Below are positions 22,164 to 31,190 of a DNA stretch of 35,931 bases, piece after piece. How positions within the stretch are numbered: the first letter of the stretch is position 1; each line of letters opens with the position of its first letter. The notes under the pieces are model-generated. The model was not told where the DNA came from. It worked only from the letters and a program-made list of their open reading frames with translations, and searched no databases. Source of the DNA: a virus; the IMG/VR virus record IMGVR_UViG_3300025703_000013, positions 1 through 35,931 of that record, one strand, 5' to 3'. A program made the position numbers and the translations under genes.

Positions 22164-24204
22164 ACTTGGTCCTCAATACCTTTCAGAAACTGATCGTCCT
22201 CTTTTGGCAAGGATGGAAGCGTTCTATGCCGAATCAATCACGATAAACCAATCATTCTGGCAAGAAGCCGACATCGACACGAGATTCTTTTCGGGTGATC
22301 AGACAGTCTTTTCAGATCTTTATGGCAATCTTCCTGCTAATCGTCGTCGTCAGTTTAGTTTTAATCGGATCAGACGCGTTGTTAACATGATAAGCGGCCA
22401 TCAACGTCGCAATAGAAAATCAACGATTGCTACTGCTATTGAGAACGGTGACTCAGAGACCAGTGATCAATTCACCAAAGTACTCATGCATATCAATCAG
22501 CAAGAGGGCGTCCTTGAAACTATTTCAGAATCGTTTGAAGGCGCCTTAGTTACTGGAATGAATCTCTTACAGGTCTGGGTAGACTATAGATCTGACCCAA
22601 TTTCAGGAACTATTAGAGTAGATAACTGCTCATACAATGCCTTTCTTATTGATCCCTATTTCCGTAAGTCAGATCTATCGGACTGCAATTCAGTATGGAA
22701 GCGTTCGTTTTTAACCAAGCGTGAAGTGATATCTTTATTGCCTGATTTCACTAAGGAAGTTCTAGGATTATGGGGTAACGACACGGGTACTGGTAGAGAC
22801 GGCAAGTTCCAGTTCATGCCTGAATCATACGGCTACTCCTACAAAAATTTATTAACCTATGATGAATTTTATTATCGTGACTATCGCACTCAAAAGATGT
22901 TAGTTGATACTAATACCGGCGAATCTACTGAATGGCGATCATCCGATGAAGAACAATTACGAGCATTCTTGAAATCAGAACCAAGTATTATGGTGGTGGA
23001 TCAAGAAATACCAACGGTAAGAATGGCAATAGTGGTGCAGGGTAAAGTATTTTATGATGGGCCTCAAAGTAATGGATTAGATCGTTATCCTTTTGTTCCG
23101 GTCTTAGGGTATTACACCCCTCAAATGCCATACTTTGATTACAGAATCCAGGGCGTTGTTAGAGGTTTGCGTGATGCACAATACCTCTACAATCGCAGAA
23201 AGATTATTGAACTAGATATCTTAGAGTCTCAGGTCACTTCAGGATTCATCTATAAAGAAAACTCCCTCGTTAATCCAAAAGACATCTTCATGGCTGGACA
23301 AGGCAAAGGCATCGCTCTGAAAGATGAAGCTATGATGACCGATGTCACCCAGATCCAAGCGCCTCAGATTCCACCATCCATGATCGAGCTCTCTAAGATC
23401 CTTGCTGAAGAAATTCAACAAATTTCGGGGGTCTCAGAAGAACTACTCGGTAGTGCTTCTGACGACGTTGCCGGCGTATTATCAATGCTTAGACAAGGGG
23501 CAGGCCTTACTACTCTGCAAACACTTTTCGATCAACTGGATCGATCCCAGAAGCTATTGGGGTCGTTAATGATTGATCTTATACAGACCAATTACACTCC
23601 TGGTAAGGTTAAGAAGATTCTTGAAACCCAAGAACCAACCAACCAGTTCTATAATAAAGCCTTTGGGAAGTATGATGCCGTTATTGAAGAAGGCATGAAC
23701 ACCACCACCCAAAAGCAGATGGAGTTTGCTCAACTCTTGCAGTTGCGTGAGCTTGGTGTGCCAGTGACGAATGCCGATCTCATTGATAAGGCCACTATTC
23801 AAGGCAAGAAAGAACTTATTGAGAACATGCAGAAAGAGCAGCAACAAGCGCAACAAATGCAGCAACAACAAGCACAGATTCAAATGGAAGAAATGCAAGC
23901 CAGAACCCAGTTGGCTCATGCACGAGCGGCTGCTGATATTGGATTACGTCATGAGCGTGATGCCCGTGTTGAATCTGATAAAGCGTTGGCTATTGAGAAG
24001 ATACACGAAGCAAATCAGCAAGATGAGCTGGCGTTGCTTAATAAAGTAAAAGTATTGAAAGAACTTGAAACCATGGACATCGGTCATATTCAGCAATTAT
24101 TGGCAATGGCTAATGAGTTGAAGTTGGCTGAACGTGCTCAAGTTCCTGGTAATAAAGAATCTAATTCCTCAGCGGGACAGAGTGTTTCTGCACCAGCTAG
24201 TTAG
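22150..24204 (+). CDS. Portal protein, P22-like, 684 aa
   Basis: ATG after AAAGGTAGAGGAAAAC. The dodecameric portal forms the DNA channel at the head vertex and docks terminase and tail adaptor. Visible marks: QADIDTRFFSGDQ-type N-terminal wing, FNRIRRVVNMISGHQRRNRK, an extended central body with FLIDPYFRKSDLSD, DGLDRYPFVPVLGYY-like core (NGLDRYPFVPVLGYY), the clip region and a long helix with QISGVSEELLGSASDDVAG. After about residue 550 a Gln-rich coiled coil (MQKEQQQAQQMQQQQAQ) forms the barrel-like tail. Length is close to P22 gp1 (725 aa). Confidence 0.85.
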   Translation: MLFPELGPQYLSETDRPLLARMEAFYAESITINQSFWQEADIDTRFFSGDQTVFSDLYGNLPANRRRQFSFNRIRRVVNMISGHQRRNRKSTIATAIENGDSETSDQFTKVLMHINQQEGVLETISESFEGALVTGMNLLQVWVDYRSDPISGTIRVDNCSYNAFLIDPYFRKSDLSDCNSVWKRSFLTKREVISLLPDFTKEVLGLWGNDTGTGRDGKFQFMPESYGYSYKNLLTYDEFYYRDYRTQKMLVDTNTGESTEWRSSDEEQLRAFLKSEPSIMVVDQEIPTVRMAIVVQGKVFYDGPQSNGLDRYPFVPVLGYYTPQMPYFDYRIQGVVRGLRDAQYLYNRRKIIELDILESQVTSGFIYKENSLVNPKDIFMAGQGKGIALKDEAMMTDVTQIQAPQIPPSMIELSKILAEEIQQISGVSEELLGSASDDVAGVLSMLRQGAGLTTLQTLFDQLDRSQKLLGSLMIDLIQTNYTPGKVKKILETQEPTNQFYNKAFGKYDAVIEEGMNTTTQKQMEFAQLLQLRELGVPVTNADLIDKATIQGKKELIENMQKEQQQAQQMQQQQAQIQMEEMQARTQLAHARAAADIGLRHERDARVESDKALAIEKIHEANQQDELALLNKVKVLKELETMDIGHIQQLLAMANELKLAERAQVPGNKESNSSAGQSVSAPAS

Positions 24205-29697: not shown

Positions 29698-29732
29698 ACG
29701 CATGAGTGTAATGAGAAGTCGCTCATCTCAAC

Positions 29733-29807
29733 GGACGTCTTAAAACAGGTCAAGAATTCGTCCACCTTGCAAATCGGACGTCTCAAAATCCTGTTAAGAC
29801 CTCGTCC
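29733..29807 (+). repeat. Pair of self-closing repeats in the capsid leader
   Basis: Two units begin with GGACGTCT and end with CGTCC (29733-29763 and 29776-29807), so each can close GGACG on CGTCC. They can also pair with each other: GTCTTAAAACAGG in the first with CCTGTTAAGAC in the second. Two mutually exclusive folds of the leader are therefore possible. A smaller hairpin ATGAG / CTCAT lies just upstream. Position suggests control of capsid expression. Confidence 0.5.
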
Positions 29808-29851
29808 AGCTTAAGGTTAGTTATATTCATAACAGCTTTAAGGAGAATTCG

Positions 29852-31190
29852 ATGGCAATAACCACTACATCGTCCTTACCTTCTCCGGTACAGCAAAGCT
29901 TTAGTTATAAGCTCCTTTCAGTACCGGTTCCCAACATGATTCACAAGATCCCTGCTATGAAGAAGAATATGCCCCGTAACGGTGGTAATACTCTTCGTAT
30001 GCGACGCTATAATCCTTTGAATACCGCAATGGTACCACTGGGTAATAGTGGCGTAACGCCTCCGCCTCAAAATCTGACAGCGGTCGATATTGATGCAAAG
30101 ATCAGTTTTTACGGTATAAATTAGGGTGCCGTATGACTGGTTTTGTAAAAATGACCTACGTCCAAATTAACGAACAAGTGACGTTACAAAACCAGGATCC
30201 CGTAAAGTTTAATGCGGGATTAAAACCCATGGTAATTGACTTGGAAGCGCTAACGTAAAGCCGAGCGTGACAAGGGGCAAGAATGATAATAGTGTATAAG
30301 AACGATATGAAGATCGATGTTGGAGCCGTGTCCCCACGGACAGCGTGCAGGCGCAATTCAACGAAAGTTGATAAATGTTTACTTACCTGTTCAGGCGGTC
30401 GACTTCATATCGTTCTATCTATCTCTATTCAGCCTGAACGACTAAATCCAAGGGCGCCGTAAGGCGATGCGATAGTCTGAACTCTATGGAGACATAGAGA
30501 GGGAGATTCGAAGAAGTTTCCCCGCCTAGAAATAGGTCACAAAAGTAACAGAACTGATTAAATGAATGCGCGGCTCGTCTCGGTGTTTCTCTTCGTCAAA
30601 CCGAAGATCAACTTACCCGTGACATGCTTGCATCTACTGCTTCCTTCATTAACTGCGTTGGTGGTGTTGACGGCGATAACCCTACTGAAATTACACGCTC
30701 AGACGTTGATGTGGTTGTTCGTACATTGTTGAATAACAATGCTTACACAATCATGGATAACATCGAAGGTGAAGATAAGTTCGGTACGGCTCCCGTTCGT
30801 AATGCTTACTTTGCATTATGCTCAACACAATTGACCGGAAATCTTGATAACGTTGCCGGATTTATTAATCAGTCACAATATCCTGCGCCAATGAATGCAT
30901 TGCGCTCAGAATGGGGTGCGATCGGTAATCTTCGTTTCCTGATTTCTAGTATTGGATCAGTCTCTCCAAATGCTTCGGCACTTGGCGCGGACGTCTACAA
31001 TATTTTCTGTGTTGGTATGGAAGCTTATGCCTGCATCGAACAAGATGGTTACAGCGCAAGCTTTATCTATCGTCCACCAATTTATGATGGTCCATTGGCT
31101 CTCAACGTTTCTGTGGGTTACAAATTCGCAGAAGTACCTCGTATTACTAACGATCTCTGGGTACTTAACTTACGCGCCACATTAGCGTAA
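29852..31190 (+). CDS. Major capsid protein, N4-gp56-like, interrupted twice (exons 29852-30115, 30154-30203, 30557-31190)
   Basis: ATG after TTTAAGGAGAATTCG. Joined exons give 948 bases, 315 residues, in one frame. Exon 1 ends KISFYG, exon 2 reads TYVQINEQVTLQNQDPV and exon 3 continues LNECAARLGVSLRQTEDQLT. The joined YG-TYVQ...DPVLNEA-like line and the following R-D-xLAST match the N4-gp56 capsid family (HK97 fold) as I recall it. The end is typical: YKFAEVPRITNDLWVLNLRA. The 38-base gap (30116-30153) brings an in-frame TAG and a frame change; the 353-base gap is a group I intron. Without removal or another rescue, translation would end after 90 codons. Confidence 0.85.
30116..30153 (+). 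other. 38-base insertion in capsid gene with group I intron end signals but no core
   Basis: The base before it is T and its last base is G. Exon TACGGT (30110-30115) pairs with GCCGTA (30128-30133), with a G.U pair exactly at the junction, as in P1 of group I introns. GGT (30125-30127) next to this guide strand can pair with ACC at the start of the next exon, as in P10. No room exists for P3-P8. It holds TAG (30122) in the incoming frame, an AGGG, and an ATG (30133) in the outgoing frame. The boundary can slide by one base. Confidence 0.7.
30204..30556 (+). ncRNA. Group I self-splicing intron in capsid gene, 353 nt, no endonuclease
   Basis: P1: exon GATCCCGT with GCGGGATT (30214-30221), G.U at the splice site. 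P10: TTTAAT (30208-30213) with ATTAAA at the start of the next exon. P3: CTTGGA (30240-30245) with TCCAAG (30447-30452). P7: GACTA (30440-30444) with TAGTC (30473-30477). P8: CGCC-GTAA-GGCG (30455-30466). P9: CTCTATG-GAGA-CATAGAG (30482-30499). Other hairpins include TCAAC-GAAA-GTTGA (30358-30371) and CCGTG-TCCC-CACGG (30326-30339). The last base is G. Splicing restores DP-V-LNEC in frame. No endonuclease is encoded, so mobility would need help from elsewhere. Confidence 0.87.

Follow-up and report, generated by a model that had tools for sequence, protein, structure and literature searches.

The viral record IMGVR_UViG_3300025703_000013 (35,931 nucleotides (nt), here called the window; all coordinates are window positions on the + strand) contains a major capsid gene that is interrupted twice, by an insert of 38 nt and by an intron of 353 nt. 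Exon 1 (29852–30115) was delimited from its open reading frame (ORF), its relatives and PHROG 1357, and it encodes 88 amino acids (aa) with the C-terminus FYG. The capsid frame that begins at 29852 reads through SFYG and then meets a stop codon TAG at 30122. Deletion of positions 30116–30153 (38 nt) and 30204–30556 (353 nt) yields a stop-free protein of 315 aa, which matches PHROG 1357, major head protein (E = 5e-32), and is 84–94% identical to its counterparts in 80 viral contigs where FYG-TYVQ is continuous. The original prediction, made from the letters of the window, had stated that exactly 38 bases break the capsid frame by introducing TAG and a frame change, and that their removal restores FYG-TYVQ; the frame, stop, length, and coordinates are all correct, and the uninterrupted relatives run through this junction. 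Exon 2 (30154–30203, 50 nt, TYVQINEQVTLQNQDP plus GT) and exon 3 (30557–31190) follow from ORF reconstruction, the former also from the relatives. An exact DNA search for the insert of the window found no copy elsewhere.

The 38-nt insert (30116–30153), which is missing in the 80 uninterrupted relatives, is surrounded by the splice-site signals of a group I intron. The last six nucleotides of exon 1, TACGGT (30110–30115), form helix P1 with the internal guide GCCGTA (30128–30133), placing a U.G pair at the splice site. Just upstream of the guide, the P10 strand GGT (30125–30127) pairs with ACC (30154–30156) at the start of exon 2, and the last base of the insert is G (30153). In addition, a repeat search revealed perfect 12-bp complementarity, overlooked in the original prediction, between the insert (CTGGTTTTGTAA, 30137–30148) and exon 2 (TTACAAAACCAG, 30184–30195). 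This helix, which we call the tether, starts 3 nt past the guide, and its exon 2 strand directly adjoins the 8-nt 5′ strand of P1 of the downstream intron (GATCCCGT, 30196–30203), which was assigned from sequence and fold and pairs with GCGGGATT (30214–30221). The RNA 30104–30224 folds into three consecutive hairpins, namely P1 of the insert, a 3-nt linker, the 12-bp tether, and, with no nucleotide between, P1 of the full intron; the fold has z = −5.0, and none of 200 shuffled sequences folded as well.

To survey relatives, four search patterns were used. Pattern 1 demanded TYVQ preceded by a G that could not be the end of a GGN codon, so that the terminal G is required by the pattern itself, and returned 12 viral contigs, each with a short insert exactly between FYG and TYVQ. 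Pattern 2, which looked for introns at the second intron site of the window and is blind to the insert, returned 17 loci, with a short insert in each where upstream sequence was available. Pattern 3 described the insert without demanding a downstream intron and gave 69 stretches, about 60 of them in this capsid gene. Pattern 4, again blind to the insert, searched for introns 24 nt nearer and gave about 30 further inserts together with about 17 introns without one. Patterns 1 and 3 thus fix parts of the splice sites, and patterns 2 and 4 do not examine the insert; the inserts recovered by the latter two carry the same splice-site signals. Altogether, inserts at this site were found at 91 loci including the window, with 72 distinct insert/exon pairs; it should be noted that the survey rows consist of related sequences and near-duplicates.

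The distinct inserts are 28–65 nt long, and their lengths fall into all three classes modulo 3. None of them is translatable, since 67 of the 72 contain an in-frame stop and the remaining five are out of frame. By the position of the full intron the loci divide into four classes: A, immediately after GATCCCGT, as in the window; B, after GTGTCGCT; C, after GAGCAGGT; and D, a single case. The coding exon between the insert and the full intron is conserved and measures 26–86 nt. A quick tree of exon 1 requires about 38 changes between presence and absence of the insert, a patchy distribution such as that of mobile introns. Inserts of 52–65 nt (L158, L173, L190, L193, L201, and L202) mostly have one more hairpin, located in the loop of P1, and otherwise keep to the common plan, and one capsid gene (L097) contains one such insert and two full introns, at the class C and class A sites. 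Among phage isolates only distant relatives were found. A genome scan for the capsid gave one clear case, a contig (CAIPPE010000153.1) binned as a Methylococcaceae metagenome-assembled genome and carrying the same insert with a class A intron; we regard this bin as a weak hint at a Methylococcaceae host.

The splice-site signals recur throughout the survey. P1 is paired in all 57 distinct rows of the alignment described below, with a compensatory change from C-G to U-A in three; accordingly, exon 1 ends in TACGGT in 69 elements and TATGGT in three, and the guide follows (GCCGTA, GCCATA). P10 is paired in 70 of the 72 distinct elements, compared with at most 55 in shuffles, in the combinations GGT:ACC (50), AGT:ACT (7), TGT:ACA (7), CGT:ACG (4), and TTG:CAA (1), the total being completed by L085, with guide GCTGTA and GGT:ACC. 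The single TTG:CAA combination belongs to L188, where the insert is followed by the codon CAA (Gln) rather than ACN (Thr) and the P10 strand has kept pace, with TTG replacing NGT. The terminal G, a base that pattern 1 demanded and patterns 3 and 4 left free, is present in 72 of 72 inserts. The 6-bp P1 with G.U at the junction, the P10, and the final G that had been claimed for the window are therefore all in place, exceed chance, and recur and covary in the 72 elements. We found no catalytic core (P3–P9) within the insert, as also predicted: the shortest inserts (28 nt) consist of the P1 loop, the P10 strand, the guide, a 3-nt linker, a 9-nt tether strand, 3 nt, and G, so that only 3 nt and the G are left without another assignment.

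The tether is conserved in the same manner. It typically comprises 8–13 bp and in almost every locus ends exactly where the 8-nt P1 strand of the full intron begins, whichever site that intron uses. Since this P1 strand is 8 nt long in classes A, B, and C, the exon strand passes from the tether into P1 without a gap. A register scan averaged over all loci gave a single peak, with the tether starting 3 nt downstream of the guide and ending 8 nt short of the 5′ splice site. Scores were higher for cognate than for swapped exons both in class A (150.5 vs. 128.4) and in class C (387 vs. 224), with none of 20,000 permutations reaching the observed value in either class, and insert tails match the site of their own class only (mean 7.7–8.9 for cognate sites vs. 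1.2–3.0 across classes). In an alignment of 57 distinct but related elements, 96.8% of the cells of the three helices are paired, against 75.7% when shuffled and at most 44% when slid, and cells with double changes number 198 against 53; the rows were excised at whichever of three tether offsets was best, a choice slightly biased in favor of pairing. These comparisons indicate that the insert is under tight structural selection. An origin of the 12-bp inverted repeat by template switching was considered and fails on the compensatory changes and on the recurrence of the same geometry at several intron sites.

The full intron (30204–30556) is the presumed ribozyme for both introns. It is identical to the intron of L083 at 217 of 250 aligned bases (87%), and its P7 is formed by GACTA (30440–30444) and TAGTC (30473–30477). 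Using a profile of the 3′ core domain built from class A introns, we detected a core downstream of 86 of the 91 inserts, and the five misses have only 85–1146 nt of downstream sequence; every insert with enough available sequence is directly followed by a full group I intron. The dependence is one-way, the insert needing the intron and not the reverse, because about 17 introns at site C lack an insert. The Rfam model RF00028 matches L083 with E = 7.9e-5 and 28.4 bits, which is under its gathering score of 50. In this alignment P1 and P2 of the model fall on the insert, exon 2 and the own P1 of the intron are passed over, and the match resumes in the core of the neighbor. From the aligned sequences, P1, P10, the terminal G, the tether, its fixed register, and the need for a downstream core can thus be regarded as established.

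On these grounds, the 38 bases are very likely a non-autonomous group I mini-intron that is removed in cis by the ribozyme of the adjacent intron. Since the insert is wired by base pairing to a downstream self-splicing intron, one ribozyme probably removes both. With similarly high confidence we take the surveyed inserts to represent a widespread natural class of core-less group I introns of 28–65 nt, which would provide splice-site recognition and a base-paired address and be removed across an exon by the ribozyme of a neighbor, one core serving two introns. A core-less intron spliced by the neighboring ribozyme was the bolder proposal of the original prediction, and the comparison supports it strongly through the conserved and compensated P1, P10, and G, the tether covarying with the 5′ splice site of the neighbor, and the lack, wherever enough sequence is available, of inserts without a downstream intron.

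As for catalysis, the order of removal, and action in cis, we infer the following course. The mini-intron would bring no catalytic core, only the elements by which its splice sites are defined: P1 (guide and U.G), the P10 strand, and the terminal G. The composite RNA would then amount to a single group I core that can choose between two P1 helices at one junction, the 12-bp tether with exon 2 setting P1 of the mini-intron directly beside P1 of the full intron (P1(mini)/tether/P1(full)). The core of the neighbor would dock P1 of the mini-intron first, and cleavage after TACGGT would use exogenous G. The terminal G of the mini-intron would enter the G site of the core, P10 would align ACC, and FYG would be joined to TYVQ. 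The mini-intron would leave with its strand of the tether, which would dissolve this helix, and the same core could then dock its own P1 and remove itself. Exon skipping from the 5′ site of the mini-intron to the 3′ site of the full intron was also considered; it shifts the frame in the window and, judging by splice phases, in the other classes.

Several observations weigh against this interpretation or limit it. As the sequences counted are related and include near-duplicates, independent events are fewer than rows. P10 is broken in two elements (L157 and L173). The tether is short or interrupted in seven class C elements (L129, L149, L152, L163, L192, L196, and L197), a few others, such as L193, are off the fixed register as scored, and the exon swap is uninformative in class B, as its exon strand is invariant at the tether. 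Geometrically, the terminal G can reach the active site only if the distal end of the tether folds back. A tether of 9 bp, as in the shortest class C elements, has the length of P1 plus P10 (6 + 3 bp), which could return the terminal G beside the splice site. Finally, RF00028 stays below threshold on the intron of the window itself, and the window contains no Rfam match at gathering level, so the group I identity of the 353-nt intron rests on homology.

Among other explanations, the neighboring ribozyme might splice the mini-intron in trans after excising itself. Engineered group I ribozymes do excise a segment in trans, by trans excision-splicing or as spliceozymes (PMC6155759, PMC4094466), and the tether sits in exon 2, where it would outlast removal of the full intron. 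Nevertheless, in every site class the tether almost always adjoins the P1 strand of a still unspliced intron, which points to cis, because such abutment is meaningful only while the full intron is in place; RF00028 likewise treats the insert and its neighbor in L083 as a single cis intron. The geometry of the tether therefore favors cis over trans action, and we consider the latter improbable. Still less probable is that the insert works on its own as a minimal group I intron, like those of 63–75 nt in Phialophora, in which P1 and P10 occur together with a pairing of the intron middle with the 3′ exon and one of which is reported to splice in vitro (PMC3160393). No P7 fits into the insert, given the 3 nt and G that remain in the shortest ones, its exon partner tracks the position of the neighboring intron, and a core lies downstream wherever enough sequence is available.

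Explanations without splicing of the insert appear extremely unlikely. Ribosomes could bypass it, as in T4 gene 60, or shift frame, and in the window the take-off codon happens to be GGT, another GGT stands in the landing frame (30139–30141), and the take-off site has a hairpin. Across the survey, though, a matched landing codon in an open landing frame occurs in 27 of 72 elements, compared with 32.5 in shuffles, and is lacking in 45; GGT landing codons number 7 against 10 in shuffles, and the conservation of P10 and of the terminal G would be left unexplained. Frameshifting, including −1 frameshifting, cannot serve inserts whose lengths fall into all three classes modulo 3. Just as hard to credit is a functionless remnant, that is, a decayed intron or an assembly error. 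One locus, L111, carries at the insert site a full intron with the same P1, from which an insert may derive by core loss. The insert nonetheless recurs in many assemblies, at 91 loci, and three helices show compensatory changes; as a dead remnant it would leave every one of these loci without an active major capsid gene. The recurrence across assemblies also rules out the assembly artefact that the original prediction had allowed for. The reading it had called plainer, in which a decayed intron persists through another rescue, agrees poorly with the tight structural selection, and bypass as the rescue stands at the level of chance.

Returning to the mini-intron served by its neighbor, L111 may illustrate how such an element arises. 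At the mini-intron site of this locus (after 8019, oriented) stands a full group I intron of 706 nt that contains an ORF and has its own core, and a second intron of about 196 nt follows downstream; a dedicated search for further full introns at this site gave L111 only, in this gene. L111 is likely a picture of the ancestral state, and the mini-intron may have originated by core loss from an L111-like intron, rescued by its neighbor.

Trans-split group I introns and twintrons are familiar cases in which intron parts are non-contiguous or one intron depends on another. Unlike in trans-split introns, the two elements do not represent halves of a single intron carried by separate transcripts, and, unlike twintrons, the two introns are not nested: the complete conserved coding exon lies between them. 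The introns of PaSSU type in the rDNA of Phialophora and lichens (63–75 nt) have a reported P7 of their own, end in U, and lie in rRNA (PMC3160393). They resemble the mini-introns in being very short and in having P1 with G.U, P10, and a pairing of the intron middle with the 3′ exon. The mini-introns differ in that the shortest have no room for P7 and all end in G, and PaSSU introns are not described as paired to the splice site of a neighbor. In the engineered trans excision-splicing and spliceozyme systems a group I core also removes a foreign segment and P10 (or P9.2) reads the 3′ site; these are laboratory designs with the guide in the ribozyme, whereas here the guide is in the mini-intron and the arrangement is natural and probably acts in cis. 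Phage genes with multiple group I introns and exon skipping, such as Twort orf142 and those of SIOphi (PMC11878797), share the close spacing of introns in one gene and the interplay of splice sites; there each intron is assumed to have its own core, while in the capsid genes two introns appear to share one, and skipping the exon between them would shift the frame.

Two further observations concern other parts of the window. Just 5′ of the capsid gene, positions 29715–29815 contain repeats of GGACGTCT and related motifs, possibly a regulatory region. A weak match to RF00028 (17.7 bits) at 22841–23017 lies inside the uninterrupted ORF of the portal protein and is probably due to chance.

Each group I intron is assumed to contain its own catalyst. 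In the capsid genes studied here the chemistry would be that of classical group I splicing, and the arrangement, with recognition in one intron, the catalyst in another, and an address helix between them, appears to be new, as the original prediction had suggested; we found no natural core-less intron served by a neighbor in the open-access literature. The parts for substrate recognition and the catalyst appear to occupy different introns that meet through a specific helix. The same division of labor separates spliceosomal introns from their self-splicing ancestors, and here it is apparently natural and small enough for the test tube. The arrangement suggests a template for compact engineered splicing, and also a class of short inserts that gene callers likely read as frameshifts. 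For the viruses themselves, if the model is true, a virus losing only the full intron would not survive, so that this intron would be locked in place; the mini-intron may thus act as an addiction device that renders the full intron indispensable.
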